Source of the DNA: a virus
Reading direction: 5' to 3' (one strand)
IMG/VR virus record: IMGVR_UViG_3300048437_000127
Coordinates: 1 to 49,751 of that record
DNA: 49,751 bases
Positions 9,722 to 46,016 of this stretch are shown here, one piece after another. The notes under the pieces were generated by a model. It ran no database searches, was not told where the DNA came from, and saw nothing but the letters and a program-made list of their open reading frames with translations. The position numbers and the translations under genes are program-made. Within the stretch, counting starts at the first letter, position 1. Each line of letters begins with the position of its first letter.

Positions 9722-9754
9722 TCTGAAAATAAATAGCATATAAATAAATCAGAT
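9721..9754 (+). promoter_or_regulatory. T4-type late promoter upstream of gp8, flanked by short inverted repeat
   Basis: The 59-base gap before gp8 holds an exact T4 late-promoter box, TATAAATA, at 9739-9746, and an overlapping AAATAAATA at 9727-9735. Six-base arms ATCTGA (9721-9726) and TCAGAT (9749-9754) flank both. In T4 this box is read by the sigma factor gp55 with the sliding clamp. The box is 34 bases upstream of the gp8 ATG. Confidence 0.75.
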
Positions 9755-9780
9755 ATTAAAACGTCCCAGAGAAAACAACA

Positions 9781-11664: not shown

Positions 11665-11668
11665 TCCA

Positions 11669-11696
11669 TTCCTAACCTCCTAAATAAGGTTAGGAA
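11669..11696 (+). promoter_or_regulatory. Perfect hairpin with late-promoter box in its loop
   Basis: Arms TTCCTAACCT (11669-11678) and AGGTTAGGAA (11687-11696) are perfectly complementary over 10 bp. The 8-base loop CCTAAATA contains the late-promoter variant CTAAATA (11680-11686). No T-run follows, so a simple Rho-independent terminator is not supported. The box lies 33 bases before the next ATG at 11720 and would serve as the late promoter of the DUF4815-type gene. The hairpin could also stabilise the 3' end of the gp8 transcript. Confidence 0.7.
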
Positions 11697-11719
11697 AATC
11701 AGAACGTTAGTAATACACA

Positions 11720-30500: not shown

Positions 30501-33500
30501 ATGGGTCTGGTAGTCCTGTCGAAATGGTTGACATTGCTACAGGAGCAACTATTAATGCTGCCAATTTGAGTGGCAGAACTGTCAACCTGCACAGACCATC
30601 TATTGTTAACTCTTCCTCGCATACGTGGGAATTTGCTGGTTCAGGAACTAACTACTTGGCACTGCCTGAAAACGGTGGAACTAAAATTGAAGCAAACGAG
30701 CAAGTATCTGAATTCTATGGACGTGTATACGTTTCTGGAACTGACGAACTTGGTGACTTTAAGGTTGGAACATTTGCTAAGATCGAGAACAGAACTGGTG
30801 CTATCACCTTTACTGGAACGGTTACCATCTCGGAAGTTGAATTCTTGAAACTGAAAGGTGGCGACGTTGTTGTCACAGGTTTCGATGACTCTAACACACT
30901 TGGTGGTGCATCTTCTTCTGACAGTAAGATCCCAACCCAGAAGGCAGTTAGAGACTTCATCACTAACAACCTTGGTGCATACATCCAGAAAGAATACTCT
31001 ACCAACTCTGTTCCTAGAGCACTGGTCGAACTAACTGACTCTGGTAAGATCTCCCTAGACCAAATTCCTGCTCTAAGACCATTTGAAGTCTTCACAGTTT
31101 CAAACCTATCTGAAAGACTCGACATTGAAGGAGCACTTGCTGGTGACATCGCAATTCAGCAAGATAATAATACATCATTCATTCTGAATAATGATAATGA
31201 TAGTTTGTTCTTAGGATTTGCTGTAGATCCTACACTAACTTTCACTATCAATGATATTTTTGAGGGAAGTATTTCTCAGGGACAAATTCAATCAACTGAA
31301 TACAGACAAGGCGTCATGTATCAGATTGTTATTACTGATCCTGGTTCTGGATATACTATCCCCCCAACTCTTACCATTTCTGGCGGCAACCCAGGACTAG
31401 GTGCAATTGGTGCATCTGCAAGTTGCACTATTGCAAACGGTCAAGTTGTTACAGTATCGATTGATGAGTTCAATGGATATGTTGGTGGTTTTGGTTATAC
31501 AACACAACCAACAGTTACATTCACTGCTCCTCCTGCAGGCGGAACACAAACAACTGGTCTTGCATTAATCGAGAGCAGACTGTATGGTAATATTGTTAAC
31601 GCTATTAAGATTACAGATACTGATCAAATAGAATCTAGTGATCTTCCCGCAGAAACTGTTAACTTAACAAGAACTATCAACACTTCTGCTGGTGATAGTA
31701 ACAACTGGGTATCACTATCTACCTCAACTGTTGATGCTAGAGACATCACGGGTGGTCCTATTGCTACGGACCTACTTGCTACCAACTCTACTGCTGCAAA
31801 CTCCTACACATTCCTGAGAGGTGATCAATCTTATGCTCTGGCAGTTCAATCGCTGAAGTCTCCAGAAGAAAGATACTTTGCAAAACTGACTGTTCCTGCT
31901 CAGTCTGGTTCAATCAACATGGTCTTTGCGACCAACCAAAATGCATTGCAGGGTCACCTAATTGTTGATAGTGTTCTTGGAATTCCATCAGAAACTATTA
32001 TTCAATCTGTAACTACAGAAAGTGGTCTGACTACGATTGGATTTGCTCAAGAAAAAGCACTAACCTCAACAATTCCAGCTGGAACAATTATTGAGTTTAG
32101 AAGAGCAACATCTCCAATCAGATTTGACTCTACATTTACCGAAGGTAACTTTATTGAAGAAATCATTATTGCCGATGGTGGTAATGGATTTACCAATGGA
32201 GAATATTTCAACCAGAATGTTGTCGGTGGCAATGGTCAAGGGTTAAAGGCAACTTATATTGTAGAAAACAATCAAGTTGTTGATGTTCTAATCACTAGTG
32301 GTGGTTCTAATTATACTCAAGACTTCTCTACTAATCTTGCTCCAACTGTCCTAGGAAGTGGAACTGGTCTTGATCTTAGATGTAAGAGATCTACTATTAA
32401 TAGACAGTATGCAAACGTTACTGTTGATATTGATAGAGTTCAAGAAGGTTCTGTTGACCCAGAATACGGAACAGTTGGTGTTGCTAGATTCGATAAGGCA
32501 CAGTTCTTTATTAACGTTGGTGGAGAAGGTTCCATCAGACTGAAGACTGCTGCCAACAGTATTGACTCTGGACTAGATGCTGACTTGCTGGATGGTAAGC
32601 AAGGTTCTTTCTATCAGAACGCAGGTAGTTTGACTTCAGGAACACTTGATTCTGATAGATTAGCAGGAAGTTATAATATTAATATTACTGGTCAGTCGCA
32701 GAATACTATCAGACTGCTGAGTGGTATTAACAACCCCTCCTCTAACCCATCTCCAAATACGTTCAGCACAGGTATTATTTCTGATACCAAGAATAACAAC
32801 GCCGACCAATTAGTTGATGGCGGAACCAAGCATATGGTTCTGACCCTAAGATCTGGTCCTGACGCTACATATGGTGGCATTAGACAGTTGGCATTCACAG
32901 ACAACGACAACATGTGGTTGCGTGGTTCTGGAACTGGTGTTGCTACATTTGGAACATGGGCTAAAATCTGGACATCAGAAAACGATGGTATTGATACAGG
33001 TCTTGATGCTGACCGCCTTGATAATAAGCAAGGAACATGGTATCAAAATGCTCTAAACATTAACTATGGAACAGTTTCTGCAAATAGATTACCTACATTC
33101 CAAGCAGCAACTTCTTTCAGAAATACCCTGAAGGTTAAGTCTTTCAATGGTGATCCTAAGTATAACATTTACGTTTCAGGCAGAATTCTATCAACTCTAC
33201 CTACACCTAACCCATTCACTCCTGGTAATGCGGTTAAAGTTTATAATGCCAACTCACAGGCAATTGGTGATCTTGAAATTGATAACTTGATTATCAACGA
33301 TGATACTTCAGATAACTTTAACGATTATACAATTATCCAAGCAAGACTGATCTCTGGTGGATTTACGGGTGCTCTGACAATTGGAACAGCAAGTAATAGA
33401 GTTGAGTTCCAAGACTTTACGATTGCAGATGATAACAATATTGATATTGCTATTCTAGAATCCGATGGAGGAACTGCTAATCTACGCCTAGGTAGAACAG

Positions 33501-35035: not shown

Positions 35036-35037
35036 AT

Positions 35038-35796
35038 ATGAGTTCACTATACGTCAATAACATCCAGTCATCAACTGGAACTGTTGTAACTATACCAGCT
35101 GGCAATGCACTGTCATTTGCTGGAACGCAACTAAGTTCAAACACTATCTTACCTACACCCCAAGCAGGTAAGATGGTATTTTCTAATGGAACTAACTATG
35201 AGTTTGGTGACTATGGTGCTGTAAGAATTATTCAGTTTCAAAGTAACTCAAGTTACGTAGTTCCTAGTAATGTTTCGATGGTTCACGTTAAATTGTGTGG
35301 AGCTGGTGGAGGTGGGTCTGGACATGGAGAGTCTGGAGGAGCTGGTGGTTATGCTGAGGGATTCTTTACTGTTCAGCAATTGGGCGGTGTTGGATCAACA
35401 ATATCAATCACTGTAGGAAGTTCTGGAACTGCAACATATTATTCTGGATCTAGTGGTAATGGTGGAACAACATCATTCGGAAGTTTGATGTCCGCAACTG
35501 GGGGAAGAGGTGCCAACAGTGTAAACCAACACTGTGGTGGTCATGGTGGACTTGGATCTGGAGGATCAGTAAACCTTTATGGTGGTGGTGCTGGCGGTCA
35601 CGTCACATATAATCATAGAGGCGGATCTAGTTACTTTGGTGGCGGTGGTGCTGCTGGACACCCACAAGGTGGAGCGTATGCATTCAACCACTCTCAAAAT
35701 TCTGCTCCTGGTGGTGGTGGTGCAGGAGAGCATTATAGATCATACTCAGGAGGACTTGGGAAAACAGGTATCATCGTAATCATGGAGTATAGATAA
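35038..35796 (+). CDS. Glycine-rich adhesin-like protein, copy 1
   Basis: 252 residues. The N-terminus MSSLYVNNIQSSTG matches the short attachment-type N-terminus common in phage fibre proteins (M-S-x-L-x-V-N-x-I). Residues 75-110 are a beta stretch leading into a glycine-rich domain (GAGGGGSGHGESGGAGGYAEG, NQHCGGHGGLGSGG, YFGGGGAAGHPQGG) ending with the strand KTGIIVIMEYR. This resembles the Gly-rich domain of phage tail proteins and, in composition, the polyglycine sandwich of T4-like gp38 adhesins. It starts two bases after the stop of the giant fibre gene, which supports a fibre-tip or receptor-binding role (inferred). Its copies 2 and 3 follow directly. It lacks the FTSSGTW segment present in both other copies and is the most divergent at its N-terminal half. 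Confidence 0.8.
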   Translation: MSSLYVNNIQSSTGTVVTIPAGNALSFAGTQLSSNTILPTPQAGKMVFSNGTNYEFGDYGAVRIIQFQSNSSYVVPSNVSMVHVKLCGAGGGGSGHGESGGAGGYAEGFFTVQQLGGVGSTISITVGSSGTATYYSGSSGNGGTTSFGSLMSATGGRGANSVNQHCGGHGGLGSGGSVNLYGGGAGGHVTYNHRGGSSYFGGGGAAGHPQGGAYAFNHSQNSAPGGGGAGEHYRSYSGGLGKTGIIVIMEYR

Positions 35797-36561
35797 ATGT
35801 CAGTATTAAGAGTAAACGAGCTTAGGTCACAAACAGGCAACACTATTAGTATTCCTTCGGGTCATGAATTGGTTTTGGATACCACTCCAATCAATTCAAA
35901 TGCTTTGCCTCCAACAGCAGGAACTGCTAATTCAGGAAAATTTCTAAAGTCAAGTAATGGTTCTTCCATTGGATGGGAGTCTGTAGGTCCAGTTGCTATC
36001 AGAACATTTACTTCCAGCGGAACTTGGTCTAGACCATCTGGTGTTACCAAAATTATGGTAAGACTTGTAGGAGGTGGTGGAGCAGGTTCAGGTGTTGGAG
36101 AATCTGGTGCTGCTGGTGGATATTCAGAAAGGTTACTTGATGTAACTTCTATCAGTAGTGTATCAGTAACTATTGGGGCAGGTTCATCTTCTTCTACCAC
36201 ATATTCGGGAAGATCAGGTAATGGTGGAACAACATCATTTGGATCGTATTTATCGGCAACTGGTGGTAATGGAGCAAACACATCACACCAGCACTGCGGT
36301 GGTCTTCCTGGACTAGGTTCTGGAGGAGACGTTAACCTCTATGGTGGTGGCGGAAATGGACATTCTTACTATGGTTGTGGGGATGGAGGGACATCATTTT
36401 TTGGTGGATCTGGGGCAGTTGGTCACCCACAAGGTGGACAATATGCACACAATAATTCTGACTCTGCTGCTTTTGGCGTAGGTGGCGGTCCTGGTTATCA
36501 TACATCCACACAAGGTGCCAAAGGCAAAAGTGGCGTTGTAGTAGTATACGAATTTAAATAA
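35797..36561 (+). CDS. Glycine-rich adhesin-like protein, copy 2
   Basis: 254 residues, ATG directly after the TAA of copy 1 with no gap. The start MSVLRVNELRSQTGNTISIP parallels copies 1 and 3. Residues 68-85 (IRTFTSSGTWSRPSGVTK) are the classic lead-in strand of glycine-rich phage tail domains. Then come GESGAAGGYSERLLDV, HQHCGGLPGLGSGG, a unique YGCGDGG, FFGGSGAVGHPQGG, and the final strand GVVVVYEFK. Its similarity to copy 3 is visible at DNA level: 26 identical bases at 36298-36323 versus 37064-37089. Same inferred role in receptor recognition or fibre tip. The extra Cys in YGCGD is found in this copy only. Confidence 0.8.
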   Translation: MSVLRVNELRSQTGNTISIPSGHELVLDTTPINSNALPPTAGTANSGKFLKSSNGSSIGWESVGPVAIRTFTSSGTWSRPSGVTKIMVRLVGGGGAGSGVGESGAAGGYSERLLDVTSISSVSVTIGAGSSSSTTYSGRSGNGGTTSFGSYLSATGGNGANTSHQHCGGLPGLGSGGDVNLYGGGGNGHSYYGCGDGGTSFFGGSGAVGHPQGGQYAHNNSDSAAFGVGGGPGYHTSTQGAKGKSGVVVVYEFK

Positions 36562-36562
36562 A

Positions 36563-37327
36563 ATGAGCACTCTATCAGTAAATAATATCGAAGCGGCACA
36601 AGGTGGTGTCGTTAATATTCCTTCAGGTTATAGTATATCTGTCGATGGCATTTTAATTAATGGCGACACTTTACCTCCAACTCCGACTGGAAGTAATCAA
36701 GGTCAAGCACTCTATGTTAATAGTAGTGGAAGTCTAGACTTCTCAACTTCTGGTCCCAGAAGTATTCAAACGTTTACTTCCAGTGGAACTTGGAATAGAC
36801 CATCAGGTATTTCAAAAGTTCTTGTCCAAATTGTTGGTGGTGGTGGTGCGGCTTCTAGTTATGGAGAATCTGGTGCTGCTGGAGGATTTTCAGAAAAACT
36901 AATTGATGTTACTGGAACTAGTAGTGTAACTGTTACTGTTGGTCAAGGTTCATCTGCATATACATCATACTCAGGTAGAGCAGGTGCTGGTGGAACATCT
37001 TCATTTGGTTCCTTTATGTCTGCTACTGGAGGTGGTGGTGGCAATAGCGCACACCAACACTGTGGTGGTCTTCCTGGACTAGGTTCTGGTGGTGATCTAA
37101 ATATCTATGGAGGTGGCGGTGCTGGTCACTCATATTATGGAAGATTTGGCGGAGGAGACTCTTTCTTCGGTGGCGGTGGTGCTGCTGGACACCCACAAGG
37201 TGGTTACTATGCTTACAATAATAGAGAACTAGTTGCTGCTGGTGGTGGCGGATCAGGTGGTTATCATTACTACAGTCATGGTGCTACTGGAAAAGATGGT
37301 GTTGTTATTGTATACGAATATTCCTAA
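36563..37327 (+). CDS. Glycine-rich adhesin-like protein, copy 3
   Basis: 254 residues, ATG one base after the stop of copy 2. MSTLSVNNIEAAQGGVV is followed by IQTFTSSGTWNRPSG (about 71-85), GESGAAGGFSEKLIDV, AHQHCGGLPGLGSGG, FFGGGGAAGHPQGG and the final strand GVVIVYEYS. Tyr and His are abundant in the loops (GHSYYGRFGGG, GGYHYYSHGATG). A 35-base identity with copy 1 (37169-37203 versus 35638-35672) shows recent duplication or gene conversion. It is probably an adhesin or fibre-tip protein. A late-promoter box overlaps its stop codon. Confidence 0.8.
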   Translation: MSTLSVNNIEAAQGGVVNIPSGYSISVDGILINGDTLPPTPTGSNQGQALYVNSSGSLDFSTSGPRSIQTFTSSGTWNRPSGISKVLVQIVGGGGAASSYGESGAAGGFSEKLIDVTGTSSVTVTVGQGSSAYTSYSGRAGAGGTSSFGSFMSATGGGGGNSAHQHCGGLPGLGSGGDLNIYGGGGAGHSYYGRFGGGDSFFGGGGAAGHPQGGYYAYNNRELVAAGGGGSGGYHYYSHGATGKDGVVIVYEYS

Positions 37328-37330
37328 ATA
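37324..37330 (+). promoter_or_regulatory. Possible late promoter (CTAAATA) before the small chaperone-like gene and enzyme cassette
   Basis: CTAAATA overlaps the stop of copy 3 and lies 23 bases before the ATG at 37354. A similar CTAAATA at 35032-35038 overlaps the junction of the giant fibre gene and copy 1 but is too close to that start to serve it. This is the last clear late box before the enzyme genes, so it may drive the whole cassette; that is inference. Confidence 0.45.
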
Positions 37331-37353
37331 TTAAAGAGAAAAATTTTTTAAAA

Positions 37354-37815
37354 ATGAAAAGAGTATTAGTAGATTACAGAGGACTAATCAGCGAAGTCGT
37401 TGAAGTTGGTTCCGAGTTCCCTGTTTATAACGGAGAAGATGCTACCCTTAAGTGGGTGCTTTGTCCTGATGACGAAGTAACTGCTCTCTGGCATCTTTCT
37501 GAGGGACAGTGGGTTTCTCCAGAAAAGAAAGTTGACTACGATCAAAACATGAAAAGAAAGATTGCCTATGGAGACATTGGCGATCAACTTGATCTACTCT
37601 TTAAAGATATTAAATCAGGACATTTGTCTGATGGAGAATGGGTTGCCAATGTAGATAGAGTAAAGGCAGAAATCGAATCACAGCGTTCATACGAAGCAAA
37701 CGCATCTAACTTTGAAGGAAAAGTTAGAATAAAAATTCATGGAACCGAAGATCCTTCGTGGAACTATCTACCCAATTCTGATTTGATTCCCCCCGAATTC
37801 CCTAACGACAACTGA
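37354..37815 (+). CDS. Small protein with XkdW/tail-chaperone-like motif
   Basis: 153 residues starting MKRVLVDYRGLISEVVEVG. Residues about 70-88 contain KIAYGDIGDQLDLLFKDIK. This resembles the 'Y-x-x-I-x-D-Q-L-D-x-L' motif of XkdW-like and tail-fibre assembly or chaperone-type phage proteins. The N-terminal half is beta-like and acidic (GEDATLKWVLCPDDEVTALW); the C-terminus ends in a Pro-rich tail (PNSDLIPPEFPNDN). Following three adhesin genes, it may help fold or attach them, as gp38 and gp57 do for T4 fibres; this is inferred from the motif and position only. The 26-base leader contains an A5T6A5 tract. It ends 15 bases before the first halogenase. Confidence 0.7.
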   Translation: MKRVLVDYRGLISEVVEVGSEFPVYNGEDATLKWVLCPDDEVTALWHLSEGQWVSPEKKVDYDQNMKRKIAYGDIGDQLDLLFKDIKSGHLSDGEWVANVDRVKAEIESQRSYEANASNFEGKVRIKIHGTEDPSWNYLPNSDLIPPEFPNDN

Positions 37816-37830
37816 TAACATCTCTATATT

Positions 37831-39330
37831 ATGAAAGTCAATTCAATATGCATTGTCGGTGGTGGCACTGCTGGATGGATGTCTGCGGCAACTTTCTCAA
37901 GAGTTTTTCCTGATAAACGAATTACTCTTGTCGAGTCTCCATCTATTGCTACCATCGGTGTTGGTGAATCTACCACTCAGTTTTTTAGAAAGTGGTTGAA
38001 CTTTATTGATCTTGATGATTCATGGATGGAAGAATGTGATGCCACATATAAATTTAGTGTAAGGTTTGAAAACTTCAACGAAGAAGATCCTTTTCACTAT
38101 CCATTTACAACACAAGACACAAGGAAAAATCCGACTGCGTGGTTCATACACAAAGCAATTACTCCAGGATTGTCTGTGAGTGATTATGCTGATTGGTATG
38201 CTCCACAAATGAAAGCAGTTAATGAGGGTAGAATACCAACCCAAGACTTTGATAGATTTGTTCTGAAGAGAGATACAGGTTTCCACTTCGATGCTACTAA
38301 GTTTGCAACTTGGTTAAAGAATAATCTATGTCAGAATGTAGAGCACATTGAAGCAGATGTTATTAATGCCGACCTAGATGAGTCTGGCAACATAGAGAGT
38401 TTACATCTCAACAATGATTCAACGTTGAAAGCAGATCTATTCATTGATTGCACAGGATTTAGATCTTACTTGATCAATGATATCATGAAGACTCCCTGGG
38501 AGACCTTTGATGATATGCTACCTAATGATAGTGCATGGACTGTAAGACTTCCATACACAGATAAAAAGTCTCAGATGAGGACTTATACTAACTGCACTGC
38601 ATTGAACAATGGTTGGGTGTGGAATGTCCCATTGAGAAATAGAATAGGAACAGGATACAACTATTCATCGAAGTTCATTAGTGATGAGGACGCTCTAGAA
38701 GAATTTAAAGAGCACCTTGGATATCCCGAACAAACTCTATGTGAATATAGAAACATCAAATTCAAGACGGGAGTCTCAAAGAAACCCTGGAACAAAAATG
38801 TCCTTGCAATTGGATTGTCTGGTGGATTCATTGAACCCTTAGAATCAAATGGATTGCTTAGTGTCCATGAATGGTTGATCTATGCTTCTCAAATAATTGG
38901 AGACAATGCAGTAAGAGCATTAGATATTAATGCATTCAACTTCACTGTTACCAAGGAGTTTAAAACTTTTGCTTACTTTGTATATTATCACTATGCTTTA
39001 TCAACTAGAACTGACTCTCCATACTGGAAGTATATGACAGAACAGTATGATGGACATGGAGATCTTCATGAAGAATATTTGTATAAAACTAGAAAGGCAA
39101 CTACGCCATTGAACAAACTAGAATATGAAAAATTTACTTATACTAACTATAGTGGTGAATCTTTTATCATGGCAGGACACGGATACAATCCATTCAATCA
39201 CGTAACTTTAAGACTTCTAGAGACAGAAAACGTCATTAACAAACGTTCATATATATCTATAGATAACTACAAACATTACGAAAGTTTAGTTAATACATTC
39301 CCGTTTGCTCACGAATATTATGCAAGTTGA
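37831..39330 (+). CDS. Flavin-dependent (tryptophan-type) halogenase 1
   Basis: 499 residues, the usual length of the PrnA/tryptophan halogenase family. The FAD motif VGGGTAGWMSAA is at residues 9-20. A lysine at position 74 (ATYKFSVRF) aligns with the catalytic Lys79 of PrnA. The halogenase signature W-x-W-x-[IV]-P is present as GWVWNVPL (W262, W264, P267), followed by GTGYNYSS. E338-S339 in FIEPLESNG aligns with PrnA E346-S347. All known key residues are therefore present. These enzymes use FADH2, O2 and halide to halogenate aromatic rings through HOX and the lysine. VirX1, a cyanophage halogenase with broad, iodide-preferring activity, has been characterised, so a phage-borne member is not unprecedented. 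No flavin reductase gene is in the window. Substrate unknown. Confidence 0.9.
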   Translation: MKVNSICIVGGGTAGWMSAATFSRVFPDKRITLVESPSIATIGVGESTTQFFRKWLNFIDLDDSWMEECDATYKFSVRFENFNEEDPFHYPFTTQDTRKNPTAWFIHKAITPGLSVSDYADWYAPQMKAVNEGRIPTQDFDRFVLKRDTGFHFDATKFATWLKNNLCQNVEHIEADVINADLDESGNIESLHLNNDSTLKADLFIDCTGFRSYLINDIMKTPWETFDDMLPNDSAWTVRLPYTDKKSQMRTYTNCTALNNGWVWNVPLRNRIGTGYNYSSKFISDEDALEEFKEHLGYPEQTLCEYRNIKFKTGVSKKPWNKNVLAIGLSGGFIEPLESNGLLSVHEWLIYASQIIGDNAVRALDINAFNFTVTKEFKTFAYFVYYHYALSTRTDSPYWKYMTEQYDGHGDLHEEYLYKTRKATTPLNKLEYEKFTYTNYSGESFIMAGHGYNPFNHVTLRLLETENVINKRSYISIDNYKHYESLVNTFPFAHEYYAS

Positions 39331-40942
39331 AAAGATTGTCATTGTTGGTGGTGGTTCGTCTGGATGGATGACTGCAGCACTGTTGGCTAAGCAGTTGCCC
39401 CACATTGATCTAACAGTGATTGAACCTGAAGATATTCCTACGGTAGGTGTTGGGGAATCAACGCTAGGACATATTAACAGATACATGAAGATGATTGGCA
39501 TCCTCGATAGAGAGAAGGAGTGGATGCCATACTGTGCTGCAACGTATAAAGTATCAATTCAGTTTACAGATTTTACAAACATTGGAGATAGATTCCAATA
39601 TCCATTTGGACAAATGGATTATAGTAATGATATTAGTCTTCAAGACTATGCTTATATCAAAGCAAAACATCCTGAATTTGAAGTTCCATATGCTAACTTC
39701 TATAATCCTATATCATACCTAGCAGACAATAATAAGATGACTTCTGATTCTAGGGTTATCAGGAATTTTGATTTCAATTATGACACATCATATCATTTTG
39801 ACGCTGCTCGTTTTGGGGAATGGTTAAAGATTAATATCTGCGAACCAGAAGGTGTCACGGTAATTAGAGATTCAGTTGAAGATATTAATGTCAATGATGA
39901 TGGTATTGAATCATTAGTATTGAAAAAAGATAAATCCAAAATTACTGCAGATCTATTCATTGATTGCACTGGATTCAAATCTCTTCTTCTAGAGCAGACT
40001 ATGGGTTCTGAGTTTGTAAGTTTTAGTGATGTTCTTCCTAATGACAAAGCAATTGCTACAAAAATTCCATATGCAGATAAGAAAAAAGAAATTCATAATG
40101 TAACAGACTGCCATGCTTTATCTGCTGGTTGGGTTTGGGATATTCCTTTGTGGCATAGAAGAGGAACTGGATATGTATACTCCAGCAAATATATTAGTAG
40201 AGAAGATGCAGAGACAGAATTTAGAGCACACCTTGCCAAGACTCTAGATCCAAAGAGAGCAGAAGAAGCAGAATTTTTTGAAATTGATATTCGTCATGGA
40301 AAAAGAAAAAGAGCATGGGTTAAGAACGTAGTTGGTATTGGACTCTCCTATGGGTTCTTAGAACCTCTAGAATCTACAGGACTTTTCACTACGCATGAAA
40401 ATGCTATTATGCTAGTTAACACCCTTGAGAGACGTTCTGGGTTTGTCTCAAAGGTTGATGTCGATGGATATAACTATGCTGCAGATCATATCATCGAATG
40501 CTTCAAGTCATTTATTCAGTTCCATTATTCCCTGTCACAGAGAGAAGATAGTCAATATTGGAAAGATCAAATTCATAACACTCCTTTGTATTACAATGAT
40601 GATCCTACTGACATTACATTGACATCTCCAAGATTGTATAAGGAATATTTACATGCAGTAAATGTAGCTAATGTCAGTGAAGACCTACAAGGATTAAATT
40701 ATATTGCAGGAGGGATGGGGTATAGTCATGTTGGAGCATCCGAAACTAACTTCAGACTCACCAAACAATACGCTGACGCATCTAGAATAAATAAGGGTAT
40801 GGTAGTATCTAGACAAACAAGAGACTATGTGATGCGCCAAATTGTTAATATGCAGTCTACTTATGAATTTCTCCAAAATAATGTCTACTTTGAATATATT
40901 TCAACAGAGAGAAAATACACACCGAAAGAATACAACTTCTAA
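39320..40942 (+). CDS. Flavin-dependent (tryptophan-type) halogenase 2
   Basis: 540 residues from the ATG at 39320 (MQVEKIVIVGGG), which overlaps the previous gene by 11 bases; a longer version from TTG 39305 is less likely. The FAD motif is VGGGSSGWMTAA (9-20). K77 (ATYKVSIQF) aligns with the catalytic PrnA Lys79. GWVWDIPL gives W271, W273 and P276. GLSYGFLEPLESTG contains E351-S352. HGKRKRAWVKNVVGIGLSYG closely follows PrnA's corresponding segment. The protein is clearly paralogous to halogenase 1 but diverged (GGGSSG versus GGGTAG) and 41 residues longer. Two intact adjacent halogenases suggest either different positions or substrates, or a heteromeric enzyme; I cannot choose between these from sequence. 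Confidence 0.9.
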   Translation: MQVEKIVIVGGGSSGWMTAALLAKQLPHIDLTVIEPEDIPTVGVGESTLGHINRYMKMIGILDREKEWMPYCAATYKVSIQFTDFTNIGDRFQYPFGQMDYSNDISLQDYAYIKAKHPEFEVPYANFYNPISYLADNNKMTSDSRVIRNFDFNYDTSYHFDAARFGEWLKINICEPEGVTVIRDSVEDINVNDDGIESLVLKKDKSKITADLFIDCTGFKSLLLEQTMGSEFVSFSDVLPNDKAIATKIPYADKKKEIHNVTDCHALSAGWVWDIPLWHRRGTGYVYSSKYISREDAETEFRAHLAKTLDPKRAEEAEFFEIDIRHGKRKRAWVKNVVGIGLSYGFLEPLESTGLFTTHENAIMLVNTLERRSGFVSKVDVDGYNYAADHIIECFKSFIQFHYSLSQREDSQYWKDQIHNTPLYYNDDPTDITLTSPRLYKEYLHAVNVANVSEDLQGLNYIAGGMGYSHVGASETNFRLTKQYADASRINKGMVVSRQTRDYVMRQIVNMQSTYEFLQNNVYFEYISTERKYTPKEYNF

Positions 40943-41708
40943 GATTAAATTTATTTCAACTGTTCCTGGAGTGAGCACTTTATATCCAATCACTCCATCA
41001 ACAAAATATAAAAGAGAATGGCTTAGTGAAGAAAAAGCAGATTATAAAGAAAGAAAATCAAAGTGTCCTGTTAATAGTCTGGTAGCACCTCTTATAGGTT
41101 CTATTGCAAAATGTCCTGCTGTAAAAGCAACAATGGGGTCAGGATATATCCTGAGGGCACCAGCTGATTTTAAGATTCATACGAATGGCGATGGAGAAAC
41201 ACTACTACCAACAGCAAGAGATATTCACCAACGTTACACTTATATCGTAACACATGAAAAAGAAATTACTGATTGGTTACTAAGTCCTGCTCTAAGAGAA
41301 AAAACAGTAAAGACTGTAGTCAAAGTTAATACTCCATGGAGACTCATCTGTCCAGATGATGATATTGTTTTCATGGTAACTCCTGTTCCATTCACACAGG
41401 AAGATCGTTTCTCAGCAGTTCAGGGTATCCTAGATCCAAAAACTGCATATGAGGTAAACGTCCAGTTGTATTGGCATGTTATGGAAGGAGATATTGTTAT
41501 TAAAGCAGGCACTCCTCTATGTCAATATATTCCTATTTCAAGAAAAGCATTGACTGCTGAAATTGAATGTTATGATGCCACCCATTATGATCATCAGATG
41601 GAAGATGAGATCTATTATGCAGGTATTCATACTTACATGGAAGAATCTACAGGGACAGAAAAAATGTTGAGAATTTCTAAAATTATGAAAAAGTATTATG
41701 GAAATTAA
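40881..41708 (+). CDS. Unrecognised protein within the halogenase/oxygenase cassette
   Basis: 275 residues from ATG 40881, overlapping halogenase 2 by 62 bases. This is an unusually long overlap, and no clear Shine-Dalgarno is seen at this ATG. The sequence that looks conserved starts KIKFISTVPGVSTLYPI, so a rare start such as ATT at 40944, one base past the previous stop, is possible. The C-terminal half is a beta-sandwich-like domain: VKVNTPWRLICPDDDIVFMV, then AYEVNVQLYWHVMEGDIVI and AGTPLCQYIPISRK. No HxD iron motif, flavin motif or membrane segment is visible. I recall similar hypothetical proteins in marine phages near oxygenases but no function. Position suggests a partner, carrier or substrate-binding protein. 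Confidence 0.7.
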   Translation: MSTLNIFQQRENTHRKNTTSKIKFISTVPGVSTLYPITPSTKYKREWLSEEKADYKERKSKCPVNSLVAPLIGSIAKCPAVKATMGSGYILRAPADFKIHTNGDGETLLPTARDIHQRYTYIVTHEKEITDWLLSPALREKTVKTVVKVNTPWRLICPDDDIVFMVTPVPFTQEDRFSAVQGILDPKTAYEVNVQLYWHVMEGDIVIKAGTPLCQYIPISRKALTAEIECYDATHYDHQMEDEIYYAGIHTYMEESTGTEKMLRISKIMKKYYGN

Positions 41709-42327
41709 TTTATTCCCAACACCAATTTACAAAAGATCAATTCGTCCTACTGAATCAGAAAAAAATACTTGCGATGAATTTTTTGCAAATATATTTGATA
41801 AGTTAGATAAGAATGTGTGGCCAGGTGAGTCTGGAAAATCAACAGGATACTATGATGTAGACTTACATACAAGACCAGAATTTAAATGGTTGTTTGATAA
41901 AATGATAGAACCATTGAATACTTATTGGTGGGAGGTATTAAAATACCACCATGCTTTAGTTCCTACAATAACTAGTTCGTGGGCGAATCTTCATATGAAA
42001 GGAGAGTCTACTGATGTCCACTCACATGTTGATGGTTATGACGGACTCAATCATATTTCTGGAGTCTTTTACTACAAGAAGCAAAAGGAAGAAGAAAATA
42101 TTAAATTTGCAAATCCACTCGATTCTTTATTAAGATGTCAACCATACAGAGACATGAAAGGCATTGAAGAAATTTCTACACCACTAGAGACTGAATCATA
42201 TGATCTATTAATTTTTCCTTCTTGGTTGAGACATAGAGTTGATCCAAACGTATTAGACGAACCACGTATTGCTATATCATTTAACTGCAGAGGAAATTAT
42301 GCTGGCACAGAAAACTTCATTAGATGA
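41698..42327 (+). CDS. 2OG-Fe(II) oxygenase-like protein (PF13759 type), cassette member 1
   Basis: 209 residues; start overlaps the previous gene by 11 bases. The N-terminus MEINLFPTPIYK is typical of the short phage 2OG-Fe(II) oxygenases of this family. SSWANLHMKGESTDVHSHVDGYDG supplies His110-x-Asp112 (with His108 nearby); ISGVFYYKK is the following strand. YDLLIFPSWLRHRVDP gives the distal His179, and RIAISFN with Arg190 is the likely 2-oxoglutarate-binding arm. This family is expected to hydroxylate a substrate using O2 and 2OG with Fe(II). Substrate unknown. Confidence 0.85.
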   Translation: MEINLFPTPIYKRSIRPTESEKNTCDEFFANIFDKLDKNVWPGESGKSTGYYDVDLHTRPEFKWLFDKMIEPLNTYWWEVLKYHHALVPTITSSWANLHMKGESTDVHSHVDGYDGLNHISGVFYYKKQKEEENIKFANPLDSLLRCQPYRDMKGIEEISTPLETESYDLLIFPSWLRHRVDPNVLDEPRIAISFNCRGNYAGTENFIR

Positions 42328-43063
42328 CTTTACTTTATGGAGTCCTAGTTCAGTATACTTTAATGATTTTATTAAAGTAAAGTCATTGAAAGATTGGGAG
42401 TATGAAAGAAAGGACAACTACTGGATTGCGGAGTCTCCATTTTATGAAGATGGGTTGGATAGGTTTAGAGACTTCGTAGCGCAATCTCCAGTATGGAGAA
42501 CTAATTCAGAAAAAGTATTTAAAGAGAACAATCCTTTTGCTACTATTCATTTACCTACTTGGGCAACAACTGGTGTTTGTCAATTGCTTAGGGATTTTTT
42601 TGTAGTAGAATGTGGTAGTAATTTTTATAATTATCACTACGAAGAGTGGGGTAATATTTTTGATAGAAATTATTGCAAACCATTAAAGAGATGGAGAATT
42701 CCTCATATGGATTGGCCGAAAGGAATTGTAGGAAACTTATGGTTTGATGGCGGACAATCTACAGGAACTAAACTATATCGTTACAAAAGAGATGTAAGCG
42801 TTACTCAAATGGAATTTCATTACAACACAGAACTTCCTCAACATCAAAAATGGATTTCATATGCTGATGATGACAGAGCAAATGAATGGTTTAATTTTGA
42901 AGACACAGATTACTGGGAGTTTGAAGAGATTGATTTTGCTCCTGCTAAAACTGGAACCATGACTTTATACCGTAGTAATACGGCACACGATCCTTTCATC
43001 ACCCCAGACACTAATTTCAGATGGTCTCATACGTTCTGTTGCTTTATTGATCATGTATCTTGA
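42299..43063 (+). CDS. Fe(II)/2OG oxygenase-like protein (possibly DUF6445-like), cassette member 2
   Basis: 254 residues from ATG 42299, chosen because it is preceded by an AGAGGAAATT ribosome-binding stretch; the frame extends further to a TTG at 42269. It overlaps member 1 by 29 bases. The core motif is RIPHMDWPKGIVGNLWFDG (His136-x-Asp138) and GTKLYRYKRD. The distal His230 is in GTMTLYRSNTAHDPF, and Arg241 in FRWSHTFCCF may bind 2OG. The arrangement HxD...GT-x-[LF]-[YF]-R...H resembles DUF6445-type oxygenases, but I cannot confirm the family. The N-terminal 80 residues, rich in Trp and Phe, are not recognised. Confidence 0.75.
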   Translation: MLAQKTSLDDFTLWSPSSVYFNDFIKVKSLKDWEYERKDNYWIAESPFYEDGLDRFRDFVAQSPVWRTNSEKVFKENNPFATIHLPTWATTGVCQLLRDFFVVECGSNFYNYHYEEWGNIFDRNYCKPLKRWRIPHMDWPKGIVGNLWFDGGQSTGTKLYRYKRDVSVTQMEFHYNTELPQHQKWISYADDDRANEWFNFEDTDYWEFEEIDFAPAKTGTMTLYRSNTAHDPFITPDTNFRWSHTFCCFIDHVS

Positions 43064-43625
43064 ACCAGTATTTTCTACACCTATATGGTCAGAGCAATTA
43101 AATCTAGACTTACCAAGTCTTGAAAGATATGCATATAATCTTCAGGAAAAAGATTCTGGCAGAGTCATATCAAATCATGGAGGTTGGCAGTCTTCTGATA
43201 TATTTGAGTTTGATAATACTCCTATCGAACCTCTAATAAATAATATTAGGAAACTACTAAAGGTATGTTTTCAAACACTGGAAGTCCCAAATATTCCAGT
43301 CATAGACAACGCATGGGTTAATATCAATCCTCCAGGATCTTTTAACAAACCACATATTCATGGGAATAATTGTTTTCTTGCAGTTGTATTTTACGTAAAG
43401 GCATCAAATGATAGCGGAAGTATATTTTTTGATAGAGGTTCTCTTCAAGAATATATCTTAAGTAATTTTGTTCCTGACGGTAGGAATACTTTTAACAGTT
43501 CTAGATGGCAGTATCAATCAAAAGAAAATCAAGTTATTATTTTTCCATCTTGGATTTCTCATTCTGTTGGCGTGAACGAGTCAGATAGCGACCGAATCTC
43601 TATAGCATTAAATGTAAAAATATGA
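43053..43625 (+). CDS. 2OG-Fe(II) oxygenase-like protein (PF13759 type), cassette member 3
   Basis: 190 residues from ATG 43053 (MYLEPVFSTPIWSEQL); a TTG two codons earlier is unlikely. Overlaps member 2 by 11 bases. WVNINPPGSFNKPHIHGNN carries H101-x-H103 where HxD is more usual; FLAVVFYVK is the following strand. IIFPSWISHSVGVN has the distal His170 and RISIALNVK the Arg181 expected for 2OG binding. Several PF13759 proteins use a His-rich motif here, so activity is still plausible. It is a clear relative of member 1, with the same FPSW-[IL]-x-H block, but the two are well diverged. Confidence 0.8.
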   Translation: MYLEPVFSTPIWSEQLNLDLPSLERYAYNLQEKDSGRVISNHGGWQSSDIFEFDNTPIEPLINNIRKLLKVCFQTLEVPNIPVIDNAWVNINPPGSFNKPHIHGNNCFLAVVFYVKASNDSGSIFFDRGSLQEYILSNFVPDGRNTFNSSRWQYQSKENQVIIFPSWISHSVGVNESDSDRISIALNVKI

Positions 43626-44257
43626 TTGAAATTAATAATTTTTTATCCGACAGACTAAATCGCCATTACGAAAATATTTTATTCCATGGAGAGTTCCCTT
43701 GGTATTATGCCGATAACATTACAAATAGTCCCACGCATTTTAATTCATATCCTATAGATTATAAACAGTATGGATTTCATCATACTTGTTTCATGGAGTA
43801 TGAATCTAGAAGTTCTACTTTATCATACTTTACTCATCTAGTAGAACTGGTTAAAGATCAACTACCAGAAAATCCAGAAGGTCATGATTGGGAATTGTTT
43901 AGAGTGAGGTGTGGATTTAATCTTCCATTAAGTCCTGTTAATAAAAGATATGCTTCTCTAGATCATAATCAACCACATGTTGATCATGATAACATAGTTG
44001 TTACTGGTAAAACTTTAACTTGTTTGTATTATGTTAATGATACGGATGGAGATACTTTTATTTTTAACGAGAAACTAAAACCTGCTCCTTCATCATGGCC
44101 AGCAAAATTTACTGTTAAGACTAGAGTAAATCCTAGCAGAAATAAATTGTTAATTTTTGATGGCGATCATTTTCATGCAAGTTCTAGTCCTACTGAGTAT
44201 GAATCAAGATTAGTATTAACATTTAATTTTCATGATAGACGTTACCAACTTTCATAA
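43622..44257 (+). CDS. 2OG-Fe(II) oxygenase (prolyl 4-hydroxylase-like), cassette member 4
   Basis: 211 residues; ATGA overlap with member 3. The double-stranded beta-helix core reads LDHNQPHVDHDN (His119-x-Asp121), LTCLYYVNDTDGDTFIFNE, KLLIFDGDHFHASSSP (distal His185) and SRLVLTFNF (Arg196, likely 2OG anchor). The Y-V-N-D-x-D-G-D-T block is typical of prolyl-4-hydroxylase-like phage oxygenases. All predicted iron and cosubstrate residues are present. The reaction is expected to be hydroxylation; the substrate (protein, peptide or small molecule) is unknown. Confidence 0.88.
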   Translation: MIEINNFLSDRLNRHYENILFHGEFPWYYADNITNSPTHFNSYPIDYKQYGFHHTCFMEYESRSSTLSYFTHLVELVKDQLPENPEGHDWELFRVRCGFNLPLSPVNKRYASLDHNQPHVDHDNIVVTGKTLTCLYYVNDTDGDTFIFNEKLKPAPSSWPAKFTVKTRVNPSRNKLLIFDGDHFHASSSPTEYESRLVLTFNFHDRRYQLS

Positions 44258-44939
44258 ATTTTTAGAAAAAATACATTCAGAATGTTTGTTCGATGAAAAA
44301 CCTCTTCATGGAAAGAATGTTTTTTCTGAACCAGTAGCTACATGGAATGATGTCAATACTGTAATCAACTTCAATCAAGGAGTAGTAGACATTATTGATA
44401 GCAATGGTGATCGTGTAGATATTCCTGCACTGAAATACTTTTGGTCTAGTAAAATTTTACAAAGTAAAGTTGAGATTACAAAGCAGATTGCAGAAGGAAA
44501 CTGTTTTTCTATATCACAATGTTTTTATCTAAATGAACCTGTCAATTATATACTTGCATTGTTAGAAGACAGATTTGATTTGATATGTGATGCACACTTA
44601 TATGGTGGTATTAGTGGGGAGGCAAATTCATTTCATCCACATGTAGATATACCTTCCAACTTTATTATCCAACTAGATGGTGATACTGCTTGGACAATAT
44701 ATAAGAACACTGCGTCTGATATGTATCCCCAAGAATATATCAACTCGTTTAGATCACTAAATTTAGAACCAGAGATTGAAGTTACGCTAACTCCTGGAGA
44801 TATGTTATACATTCCACCCAGAAGATTTCACAAAGCAAGACCAAGCGGCAAAAGATTATCTTTGAGTATACCTGCTGCATCTAAAAAGTATACCAACGCT
44901 AGACCTATTGACAGACAGATGTATGACGTTACCAAATGA
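44232..44939 (+). CDS. JmjC/cupin-type Fe(II)/2OG oxygenase-like protein, cassette member 5
   Basis: 235 residues; overlaps member 4 by 26 bases. The pattern is that of JmjC/Cupin_4 (ribosomal-oxygenase-like) proteins: SFHPHVDIPSNFIIQLDGD with His137-x-Asp139, WTIYK with Lys156 as likely 2OG anchor, and LTPGDMLYIPPRRFHKARP with distal His200, then LSLSIPA. The 'PGD-x-L-Y-[IV]-P-x-x-x-x-H' segment is highly characteristic. Known relatives hydroxylate protein side chains (ribosomal protein Arg or His). This makes a protein substrate, possibly a virion protein, an attractive but unproven idea. Confidence 0.82.
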   Translation: MIDVTNFHKFLEKIHSECLFDEKPLHGKNVFSEPVATWNDVNTVINFNQGVVDIIDSNGDRVDIPALKYFWSSKILQSKVEITKQIAEGNCFSISQCFYLNEPVNYILALLEDRFDLICDAHLYGGISGEANSFHPHVDIPSNFIIQLDGDTAWTIYKNTASDMYPQEYINSFRSLNLEPEIEVTLTPGDMLYIPPRRFHKARPSGKRLSLSIPAASKKYTNARPIDRQMYDVTK

Positions 44940-45516
44940 TGTTCACTTAGTTAAAAATCATCTTCATAAAGATGTGGTGTCTCTCCTACTGTCTGAGATC
45001 AGAATTTTTGTGAAGGCATCAGATATTTTTGAGGATCGTAGTGGACATGTAGATGATACTTTTAATTGGTATTCTCCACCTGGGTGTGAAGCATTGATGA
45101 TCAATCTAAAACAATTTGTTGAAGAAAAAATAGGATTAAATTTACATCCAACATATAGTTATGCTAGAATCTACCAGGAAGGTAGTGAACTCAAAAAACA
45201 TCTAGATAGAAAAAGTTCTGAACATGTTGTTACTTGCTGTTTATATAAAGAATCTCCATATCCTATTACCATAGATGATGGTGATACTCTACATCATATA
45301 GATTTAGAGGTAGGGGATATACTAATATTCCCTGGAAGAAAGTATTTTCATTGGAGAGATAAATATCAGGGAAAGGAACATATTCATTGTTTTCTTCAAT
45401 ACGTTGATGCTGATGGTTCATTGGCAGACTACAAGTATGATACTAGACCATGCTTGGGTTCCAACTACCAATTTACAGATCAAAAAGTTAAAGATGAAAT
45501 GATACGAGGTTATTAA
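44923..45516 (+). CDS. 2OG-Fe(II) oxygenase-like protein, cassette member 6
   Basis: 197 residues from ATG 44923 (MTLPNDVHLVKNHL); the frame also opens at TTG 44908. It overlaps member 5 by 17 bases. YARIYQEGSELKKHLDRKS gives His93-x-Asp95; HVVTCCLYKE is the following strand. VGDILIFPGRKYFHWRDK carries the distal His143. The usual basic 2OG anchor is not obvious at the expected place (EHIHCFLQYV); Lys151 or a His may substitute. The RxYxxGxxLxxHxDR block is typical of prolyl-hydroxylase-like phage proteins. The last 35 residues look like an unstructured or substrate-specific tail. Confidence 0.82.
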   Translation: MTLPNDVHLVKNHLHKDVVSLLLSEIRIFVKASDIFEDRSGHVDDTFNWYSPPGCEALMINLKQFVEEKIGLNLHPTYSYARIYQEGSELKKHLDRKSSEHVVTCCLYKESPYPITIDDGDTLHHIDLEVGDILIFPGRKYFHWRDKYQGKEHIHCFLQYVDADGSLADYKYDTRPCLGSNYQFTDQKVKDEMIRGY

Positions 45517-45785
45517 TGTCTACAGAAACTGAAGAGAAAAAAGATCTTAAAACTTTTGATGAAGTTTGGGATAGTTTCTCGGAGCGACTTGCTGATGCTA
45601 GAGTAGCTCTAATAAATAAGAGAGAAGAGATTGAAAAACAAACAGAAATCTCTACGCGAATTGATCTAACAGAACATCATGATCTACAGATCATGGTGCA
45701 TAAGTTAGAAGCGGCACTTGAAACTCTAAACGTAGTTAGAGTCGAGTGCTTAGGACTAGAATCATTAATCAATTATGAGGCATAA
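45516..45785 (+). CDS. Small coiled-coil protein, uncharacterised
   Basis: 89 residues, TAATG overlap with the last oxygenase; a CGAGG ribosome-binding stretch lies six bases before the ATG. Long helix-forming heptads (VWDSFSERLADARVALINKR; MVHKLEAALETLNVVRVEC) and no catalytic motif. It may be a structural or assembly helper belonging to the neck side of the operon. I do not recognise a family. Confidence 0.72.
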   Translation: MSTETEEKKDLKTFDEVWDSFSERLADARVALINKREEIEKQTEISTRIDLTEHHDLQIMVHKLEAALETLNVVRVECLGLESLINYEA

Positions 45786-45787
45786 AA

Positions 45788-45976
45788 ATGGACACTGAAC
45801 AACTTAAAAAGAATTTTGACGATCAACTTGCTCAAACTCTAAAGCAAATTGGTGAACTTAAAGAAAACCTAAAGAAGGCAGAGGAATATAAATTGAAGCT
45901 AGAGGGAGGTCTCGAAACCTTGCTTATGTTGAATCCTCCAGAAGAAGAATCACCTGCAGAAGAACCAGCAGAATAA
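45788..45976 (+). CDS. Small acidic coiled-coil protein upstream of gp13
   Basis: 62 residues, MDTEQLKKNFDDQLAQTLKQ at the start, continuous charged heptads to residue 45, then a Pro/Glu tail (NPPEEESPAEEPAE). GAGG lies about ten bases before the ATG. Similar short coiled-coil proteins commonly precede gp13 in T4-like cyanophages as I recall them; function unknown. The terminator-like hairpin follows within eight bases of its stop. Confidence 0.72.
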   Translation: MDTEQLKKNFDDQLAQTLKQIGELKENLKKAEEYKLKLEGGLETLLMLNPPEEESPAEEPAE

Positions 45977-45983
45977 CTCTAAA

Positions 45984-46016
45984 TCCCTGCCTGATAAATA
46001 CAGGTAGGGACTTTTT
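45984..46016 (+). terminator. Rho-independent terminator-like hairpin with late promoter in its loop
   Basis: Arms TCCCTGCCTG (45984-45993) and CAGGTAGGGA (46001-46010) pair at nine of ten positions, with the 7-base loop ATAAATA, and are followed by CTTTTT. It would end the enzyme-cassette transcript. The late box GATAAATA (45993-46000) occupies the loop and would start the gp13-gp16 transcript, 28 bases before the gp13 ATG. Confidence 0.78.

Follow-up and report, generated by a model that had tools for sequence, protein, structure and literature searches.

The window analyzed here is the whole 49,751-nt stretch of IMG/VR record IMGVR_UViG_3300048437_000127, which comes from a marine cyanobacterial virus and in which enzyme genes lie directly behind tail-tip adhesin genes. 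Between positions 37831 and 45516, nine overlapping genes code for two flavin-dependent halogenases, a protein with a predicted dUTPase fold, and six putative Fe(II)/2-oxoglutarate (2OG) oxygenases (Table 1). An ORF check reproduced the nine-gene row of the original prediction at the same coordinates, with successive overlaps of 11, 62, 11, 29, 11, 4, 26, and 17 bases and a final one-base overlap with the gene at 45516. The 62-base overlap rests on the start of the third gene at 40881, which is uncertain because the S-RIM44 annotation begins later and the first 15 residues are poorly modelled. Seven late-promoter-like heptamers were found in the window, all on the coding strand, a total that is not above chance.

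Table 1. Features of the adhesin and enzyme gene region of the window.
Feature	Position	Strand	Remarks
Long tail-fibre gene, 3494 aa	24551..35035	+	Precedes adhesins; in exchanged host-recognition block
Tail-tip adhesin 1, 252 aa, Gly_rich_2	35038..35796	+	Pfam PF21722 E 3e-10; phrog_863 tail E 3e-54; E98 E107 Y135 N160 H165 H188
Tail-tip adhesin 2, 254 aa	35797..36561	+	E102 E111 Y136 N161 H166 H189
Tail-tip adhesin 3, 254 aa	36563..37327	+	E102 E111 Y136 N161 H166 H189
CTAAATA, T4-type late-promoter-like heptamer	37324..37330	+	23 bp upstream of chaperone-like gene
Chaperone-like gene (phrog_1787)	37354..37815	+	Between adhesins and halogenase
Halogenase 1, flavin-dependent	37831..39330	+	67% identity to Syn10 CPUG_00132
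Halogenase 2, VirX1-type	39320..40942	+	50% identity to VirX1 over 426 aa
dUTPase-fold protein (phrog_7084, weak DUF6065)	40881..41708	+	Predicted fold
2OG-Fe(II) oxygenase, TIGR02466/PF13759	41698..42327	+	H108/H110/H179/R190 (His-x-His...His...Arg)
2OG oxygenase-like protein (weak DUF6445; phrog_1644)	42299..43063	+	H136xD138...H230
2OG-Fe(II) oxygenase, TIGR02466/PF13759	43053..43625	+	H101/H103/H170/R181 (His-x-His...His...Arg)
2OG-Fe(II) oxygenase PF13640 (phrog_274)	43622..44257	+	H119xD121...H185
JmjC_2 oxygenase, relative of histidyl hydroxylases NO66/MINA53	44232..44939	+	H137xD139...H200
2OG oxygenase-like protein (phrog_2954)	44923..45516	+	H93xD95...H143
Small gene ending exchanged block	45516..45785	+	
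Terminator-like hairpin, 10 pairs, T-rich tail	45984..46010	+	Between array and neck gene gp13 (46029)

The catalytic motifs of both halogenases are intact, as had been claimed from the letters of the sequence. The two proteins match the Pfam Trp_halogenase model (PF04820) with E values of 3e-103 and 3e-108, and each carries a GxGxxG-type FAD motif, the catalytic Lys (K74 and K77 for halogenases 1 and 2, respectively), the WxWx[IV]P motif (W262/264 and W271/273), and the Glu-Ser pair (E338-S339 and E351-S352); in the family alignments the Lys, W-x-W, and Glu-Ser positions are kept at 98–100%. The best local alignment of halogenase 2 with PrnA ends at PrnA residue 414, before the C-terminal region that binds free tryptophan, whereas that of halogenase 1 reaches further. 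Halogenase 2 belongs with VirX1 (PDB 6QGM), a viral iodinase that has been crystallised, both by sequence and by gene setting, as VirX1 is the cyanophage Syn10 member of a homologous cassette and is encoded behind two glycine-rich adhesins. VirX1 has a large open active site that accepts bulky phenols and has been assigned to no pathway; the iodide preference, open active site, and trimer are known for this enzyme only (PMC8407142). No flavin reductase was found in the cassette. Chain 5uao (MibH) was returned as a distant sequence match.

The third protein of the array had been listed as unknown, but it has a predicted dUTPase-like core: part of its modelled fold matches 3ecy (E 8e-4), and the Pfam dUTPase model matches its family weakly (2/65 sequences). 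A His-x-Asp...His motif had been proposed for all six oxygenases. This motif is present in the products of 42299, 43622, 44232, and 44923, while those of 41698 and 43053 have a His-x-His...His...Arg arrangement instead. The last gene of the six (44923) counts as oxygenase-like only through its conserved H93-x-D95-R96...H143, since no Pfam 2OG model reaches the cut-off there. The product of 44232 matches JmjC_2 above the Pfam cut-off (E 6e-18) with H137, D139, and H200 conserved; unlike NO66, MINA53, and RoxA, it is a 235-aa protein lacking the added C-terminal domains, and about 100 of its residues align to chains of 370–490 aa. Three database labels were rejected. "Ferrochelatase" (phrog_2954, ORF 44923) had a Pfam ferrochelatase match in 0/20 homologues and a single sub-threshold PDB match (E 0.66), and Pfam likewise gave no support for "DNA endonuclease V" (phrog_274, ORF 43622) or "minor coat protein" (phrog_1644, ORF 42299).

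A search for sequence relatives of the adhesins in the PDB returned nothing meaningful. The AlphaFold2 model of adhesin 2 (pLDDT 88.8), on the other hand, has the TNF-like plus glycine-rich fold of Pam3 gp24-type polyglycine adhesins; its best Foldseek match in the PDB is the fibre tip of cyanophage Pam3 (7ypx, E 2e-8, TM 0.57), and the PF21722 match is above cut-off. Pam3 gp24 is the receptor-recognition tip of that phage, in which gp25 serves as a dedicated chaperone (PMC9608196). The glycine-rich receptor-binding tip is likewise shared with S16/T2-type gp38. In those systems, however, the loop ends are hypervariable and modification enzymes are lacking, whereas several loop residues are invariant in the adhesins described here. 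The chaperone-like protein of the window has no relative in Pfam or the PDB that we could find, and its gene also accompanies adhesins without a halogenase. The adhesins had been called Tyr/His-rich. Compared with homologues lacking a halogenase, His content is indeed raised (0.046–0.053 versus 0.026), but overall Tyr is not (0.046–0.051 versus 0.043), and the idea that halogenation has made the adhesins Tyr-rich was discarded.

The original prediction named no other stack of this density. It is not unique, however, having been sequenced previously: cyanophage S-RIM44 has the stack at 94% DNA identity, and GenBank holds versions of it from Syn9, Syn10, P-RSM6, P-TIM40, S-CREM1, and Sf-FP1. Chance is excluded as the origin of the stack because synteny holds in more than 100 contigs. 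Co-occurrence with adhesin genes, the point on which the prediction had been set to fail, was near-perfect: the halogenase lies directly downstream of the adhesins and the chaperone-like gene at 73 of 77 adhesin-seeded IMG/VR loci, the other four being contig ends, and all 20 adhesin-bearing GenBank phages (INPHARED records) also have a halogenase. In the reverse direction, the adhesins and the chaperone-like gene are directly upstream at 42 of the 52 halogenase-seeded loci whose upstream DNA was long enough, and seven of the 52 have no glycine-rich neighbour. When loci were seeded with gp13, the cassette was found in 8/8 with an adhesin versus 12/42 without one. Minimal arrays consisting of adhesins, the chaperone-like gene, and a halogenase, with zero or one recognised oxygenase, also exist, so the constant partner of the adhesins is the halogenase and not the oxygenase stack, which refines the original prediction. 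The invariant unit is two to three glycine-rich tail-tip adhesins followed by the small chaperone-like gene and the halogenase, with the oxygenases optional. This adhesin partner of the halogenase stack appears to have gone unrecognised.

The order of the array is kept at differing genome sites. It lies before gp13 in the window, S-RIM44, and Sf-FP1, and elsewhere in Syn9, Syn10, P-RSM6, P-TIM40, and S-CREM1. Moreover, DNA comparison within the named species S-RIM44 indicates that adhesins and cassette have been swapped together. Identity is 94% up to position 20352 and again from 45788; in between, only patches of 68–71% are found on to 31719, and nothing is alignable from 31719 to 45788, where homology to cassette-less alleles resumes. 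For pelagi- and cyanomyophages, a host recognition cluster has been described, a hypervariable block of fibres and enzymes between VrlC and the neck genes, but the specific adhesin-halogenase unit is not described there (PMC7029224).

Six adhesin residues are coupled to the halogenase. Among 396 distinct adhesins encoded ahead of a halogenase, Glu102, Glu111, Tyr136, Asn161, His166, and His189 (numbering of adhesins 2 and 3) are nearly invariant; in 14 adhesins of the same family without a halogenase nearby, they are mostly lost. Tyr and His166 are each present in 395/396 versus 1/14, Glu in 392/396 versus 2/14, and Asn in 379/396 versus 1/14, while a structural Phe persists regardless (396/396 and 14/14). 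The Tyr coupling also stands in loci found without use of the adhesin sequence (131/131, 128/129, and 20/20), and the coupling is retained in 50%-identity clusters (7/7 with versus 1/7 without halogenase). Of the 14 non-halogenase adhesins, about half fall into a single S-B64-like clade and several of the rest are remote (39–104 HMM bits), so the independent contrast amounts to about seven clusters per side. They were gathered by an alignment-led scan; the S-B64 protein as sole query yielded a single locus. The number of halogenases (one versus two or more) left no signature that we could find in the adhesins. Alternatively, these conserved residues could make up a metal- or ligand-binding site in a special class of adhesin, with the enzymes acting on a different virion protein (the long fibre, for example) or in another late function and being co-inherited with that class. 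His and Glu commonly serve as metal ligands, and joint conservation of all six residues would not obviously be needed for modification at one site. Nevertheless, loss of the set tracks the missing adjacent halogenase even at matched divergence (100–130 HMM bits), with 5.87/6 residues kept versus 1/6, the latter value coming from two sequences, and we regard this alternative as improbable.

Phage halogenases and many marine-phage 2OG oxygenases have so far been filed as auxiliary metabolic genes (AMGs), and published genome papers treat the genes found here in the same way. Accordingly, the substrate might be a small molecule of host or phage (tryptophan, an indole, a signal, or an antibiotic), or the enzymes might modulate 2-oxoglutarate/NtcA or DNA repair; they would then lie in the host-recognition region simply because it is a hot spot of gene gain. 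The roles given in these papers are pyrrolnitrin-like chlorotryptophan (PMC9964418), 2OG/NtcA modulation and DNA repair (PMC3037559), and altered host metabolites (PMC10452541). Halogenation by VirX1 has been reported in vitro on free, small aromatic substrates only (PMC8407142), and related halogenases occur among the AMGs of S-MbCM6, Syn1, and P-SSM2. These AMG-region enzymes, however, form a more distant group with about 30% identity to halogenase 1, and the cassette contains neither a transporter nor a carrier protein, nor any further gene for biosynthesis. Free-tryptophan halogenation or a pyrrolnitrin-type pathway was rejected, as no further pathway gene is present. An insertion hot spot alone is also disfavoured: it leaves unexplained why the genes keep one order behind a single adhesin family wherever in the genome the array lies, the joint exchange of adhesins and cassette, and the residue coupling. 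Overall, we consider an auxiliary metabolic role unlikely.

The gene and residue patterns support the tailoring of virion tips put forward in the original prediction, and the cassette is probably a late, co-exchanged tail-tip maturation module that halogenates, and in its fuller versions hydroxylates, receptor-binding adhesin tips. The cassette would probably be transcribed late, together with the virion genes. Two to three glycine-rich adhesins would be made with folding assistance from the small chaperone-like protein, and should form the receptor-binding tips of the fibres. A VirX1-type halogenase, drawing on host FADH2, O2, and seawater halide, would then halogenate an aromatic side chain of the adhesin. 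The best candidate target is the near-invariant Y136, which sits mid-way along a glycine-rich loop in the predicted model, followed by the invariant His residues. Where present, the oxygenases may add hydroxyl groups to other residues of the loops (His, Pro, Asn, or Arg), and enzymes and adhesins would be inherited and exchanged as one host-recognition block, with a possible effect of the modification on adsorption. A more specific version, in which the native role of VirX1 is site-specific formation of iodo-, bromo-, or chloro-tyrosine at Y136 alongside hydroxylation of the receptor-binding tips, is offered tentatively, as a possibility somewhat short of probable.

Some precedent exists for the proposed chemistry. 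MibH and SrpI (RiPP) and VhaA (vancomycin biosynthesis) are flavin-dependent halogenases that act on peptides, in the case of MibH and VhaA only after prior hydroxylation (PMC12615548). Their substrates are small peptides, whereas a folded tail-tip protein of ~254 aa, in which no leader is apparent, is proposed here. A RiPP modification cluster was itself rejected, as the array has no short leader-bearing precursor, protease, or exporter and the adhesins are 252–254 aa long. In chlorovirus PBCV-1, a prolyl 4-hydroxylase and collagen-like proteins provide a case, in work cited in PMC9301287, of a viral 2OG oxygenase proposed to modify a structural protein; that system differs in having no halogenase, no tailed-phage adhesin, and different oxygenase families. 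Should adhesin maturation prove correct, a class of abundant "metabolic" genes would join host recognition, and VirX1 would gain a native substrate that mass spectrometry could test directly. By halogenating a folded protein enzymatically, a virus would have a new means of varying its binding surface while the protein sequence stays the same, and a small cassette of tailoring enzymes would widen the chemistry of that surface. Decoration of tail tips with halogens or oxygen, as the related viruses suggest, would be a virus-particle chemistry not previously known.

In a variant of the maturation reading, one kind of enzyme alone (either the halogenase or the oxygenases) would act on the adhesins, the rest being passengers with another substrate. 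Halogenase arrays without a recognised oxygenase are consistent with such a division, as are S-B64-like relatives, which keep an adhesin, the chaperone-like gene, and one or two oxygenase-like genes with no halogenase nearby; S-B64 has a halogenase elsewhere in the genome. We nonetheless consider the division rather unlikely. Conservation of loop His and Pro goes with the presence of oxygenases, columns H207, H217, H220, and P208 being conserved at 0.70–0.95 with oxygenases versus 0.03–0.42 in halogenase-only arrays, a difference that is confounded with phylogeny. In addition, most arrays show a largely constant succession of oxygenases behind the halogenase.

The window is an IMG/VR virus record of 49,751 bases and comes from a cyanomyovirus with Cyanophage S-RIM44 as its near relative. 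A recheck of its open reading frames returned the nine cassette genes and their overlaps at the coordinates of the original prediction, and catalytic motifs are present in both halogenases. His/Asp...His motifs had been claimed for all six oxygenases; four carry HxD...H, whereas the two PF13759/TIGR02466 proteins conserve HxH...H...R instead. The third gene product is predicted to have a dUTPase-like core (pLDDT 91). The PHROG names of three oxygenase-like proteins are without Pfam support, and these labels, also found in RefSeq, look like propagated misannotation.

Positions of features in the window and in compared loci (L-numbers)
Feature	Sequence	Position	Remark
Adhesins 1, 2, 3	window	35038..35796, 35797..36561, 36563..37327	glycine-rich, tail-tip
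Adhesin copies	window	36003-37319	cross-match at ~72% DNA identity (S-RIM44 comparison); tandem relatives
CTAAATA	window	37324	ahead of chaperone-like gene; consensus match only
Chaperone-like gene	window	37354..37815	
Cassette	window	37831-45516	nine genes
Third gene	window	40881..41708	
Oxygenase-like	window	42299-43063	labelled 'minor coat protein'
Oxygenase-like	window	43622-44257	labelled 'DNA endonuclease V'
Oxygenase-like	window	44923-45516	labelled 'ferrochelatase'
Hairpin terminator	window	45984-46010	consensus match only
gp13	window	46029	neck gene
gp39	Syn9 (L002)	7150-8328	
Second cassette type	Sf-CH11 (L004)	6893-13055	also L229
~410 aa gene	L204	8745-9989	phrog_1458, function not assigned; also L194, L207, L211, L217, L218
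Three adhesins, then four halogenase-family genes	L239	8523-14796	also L224; three of the four strongly divergent
Glycine-rich proteins near 2OG oxygenases and halogenase	S-SSM7 (L322)	270-10998	other halogenase subtype
Same	Pelagibacter phage HTVC008M (L323)	1-10158	other halogenase subtype

Co-occurrence of cassette and adhesins was assessed in four scans of IMG/VR, seeded with the third gene, the adhesins, the halogenases and, as a neutral anchor, the neck protein gp13; gene families in the loci were assigned by profiles. A halogenase lay downstream in 73/77 adhesin-seeded loci, the remaining four being contig ends, and 58 of the 64 third-gene-seeded loci with full flanks combined adhesin, chaperone-like gene, halogenase and oxygenases. 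Where upstream DNA was sufficient, halogenase-seeded loci had an adhesin (42/52), another glycine-rich protein (3/52) or neither (7/52). Around gp13, the cassette was found in 8/8 loci with an adhesin versus 12/42 without one (hypergeometric p ~2e-4, by hand and ignoring relatedness). Most of these 12 carry a different array, ordered ox7 ox6 halogenase ox9 (ox, oxygenase family), which glycine-rich proteins flank on both sides in Sf-CH11. The co-occurrence anticipated in the original prediction was thus observed, and it favors the modification of virion tips proposed there. Minimal arrays consist of adhesins, chaperone-like gene and halogenase with zero or one recognised oxygenase, often with a ~410 aa gene, which lies between chaperone-like gene and halogenase. 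A second cassette type, made up of oxygenases, a single halogenase and an oxygenase-like gene, likewise adjoins gp13; the glycine-rich proteins on both of its sides belong to another subfamily.

The gene stack is already in databases. The region recurs at 94% identity in five records of S-RIM44. Syn9, Syn10, Sf-FP1, P-RSM6, P-TIM40 and S-CREM1 have syntenic versions that carry one or two halogenases; in S-SZBM1 and S-WAM1, halogenase, adhesin and JmjC genes lie close together. All adhesin-bearing INPHARED records (20/20) also have a halogenase, and bacterial and archaeal genome assemblies gave two matches, both contigs with the same adhesin-cassette array. These genes have been labelled auxiliary metabolic genes, with pyrrolnitrin-like protection (PMC9964418), 2OG/NtcA or DNA repair (PMC3037559) or altered metabolites (PMC10452541) as assigned roles. 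No link between them and the adhesins was found in the literature searched, which took in few subscription journals and, for VirX1, a review. The unit of adhesins and halogenase, like its residue signature, appears to be previously undescribed.

Two S-RIM44 alleles differ in this region. KX349292 and the window share 94% identity as far as 20352 and once more from 45788 onward. The stretch between retains only patches of fibre similarity (68-71%, reaching 31719), and two small genes plus one oxygenase-like gene replace the adhesins and the entire cassette. Adhesins and enzymes are therefore exchanged jointly, in a host-recognition block that earlier work named a host recognition cluster (PMC7029224). 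The chaperone-like family is weakly related to one small Syn1 gene.

The linkage extends to individual adhesin residues. We compared 396 distinct adhesins having a halogenase ≤6 kb downstream with 14 homologues that show none and whose loci extend ≥4.5 kb downstream; about half of the latter form one S-B64-like clade and several others are remote. Profile columns E100, E109, Y133, N158, H163 and H186 (E102, E111, Y136, N161, H166 and H189 in window adhesins 2 and 3) are near-invariant in the linked set and mostly lost in the unlinked one (Y 1/14, in the marginal L429; H163 1/14; N 1/14; E100 2/14; E109 2/14; H186 6/14), in which structural F145 is kept in 14/14. Divergence alone does not explain this loss, since at 100-130 HMM bits linked adhesins still keep 5.87/6 residues (n=15) and unlinked ones 1/6 (n=2), with structural columns 5/5 in both. 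Nor is Tyr conservation a retrieval effect, because it holds in loci found by third gene (131/131), halogenase (128/129) or gp13 (20/20). With seven 50% identity clusters per side, Tyr was present in 7/7 linked and 1/7 unlinked (two-sided Fisher ~0.005, by hand). Halogenase-only arrays keep all six residues. H207, H217, H220 and P208 are conserved only alongside oxygenases, a pattern confounded with phylogeny and only a lead. In the S-B64-like loci (L350-L360), adhesin and chaperone-like gene lack an adjacent halogenase, and the conserved Tyr is Asn and His is Tyr; S-B64 retains a halogenase elsewhere in its genome.

Modelled at pLDDT 88.8, the adhesin finds a structural match in the fibre of cyanophage Pam3 (7ypx; E 2e-8, TM 0.57). 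Known adhesins of this kind have hypervariable loop ends, whereas the window adhesins have conserved residues mid-loop. Because E102, Y136, N161/H166 and H189 sit near the middle of successive inter-strand loops in the model, they are probably at or near the distal tip.

Co-occurrence and the residue-level comparison together support virion-tip modification, though the modification itself is inferred. Beyond gene linkage and residue coupling, we infer the following steps. The cassette would probably be expressed late, to judge by the CTAAATA motif ahead of the chaperone-like gene and the hairpin terminator, both only consensus matches, and the adhesins would be folded with the chaperone-like protein. 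Halogenase 2, sometimes also halogenase 1, would halogenate a conserved aromatic adhesin residue, most likely the Tyr. Further loop residues would be hydroxylated by the oxygenases, one of which is a JmjC_2 protein related to histidyl hydroxylases. Peptide halogenases dependent on hydroxylation (MibH, VhaA) offer a chemical precedent (PMC12615548).

VirX1, the viral halogenase that has been crystallised, is CPUG_00131 of Syn10 (1271 bits over 530 residues). Ahead of it in Syn10 lie a pair of glycine-rich adhesin genes, then the chaperone-like gene and a halogenase gene whose product shares 67% identity with window halogenase 1; both adhesins (CPUG_00135 and CPUG_00134) keep the six residues, as read off the alignment. 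VirX1 is a trimer without an assigned pathway; its active site is large and accessible, it accepts bulky phenols, and it prefers iodide over bromide and bromide over chloride (PMC8407142). These properties and the Syn10 setting are consistent with, though no proof of, an aromatic substrate of large size, for instance a loop on a protein. Syn9 gp39 looks like an extended form of CPUG_00134, which is intact in Syn10, with its frame partly broken by either a sequencing error or a real mutation.
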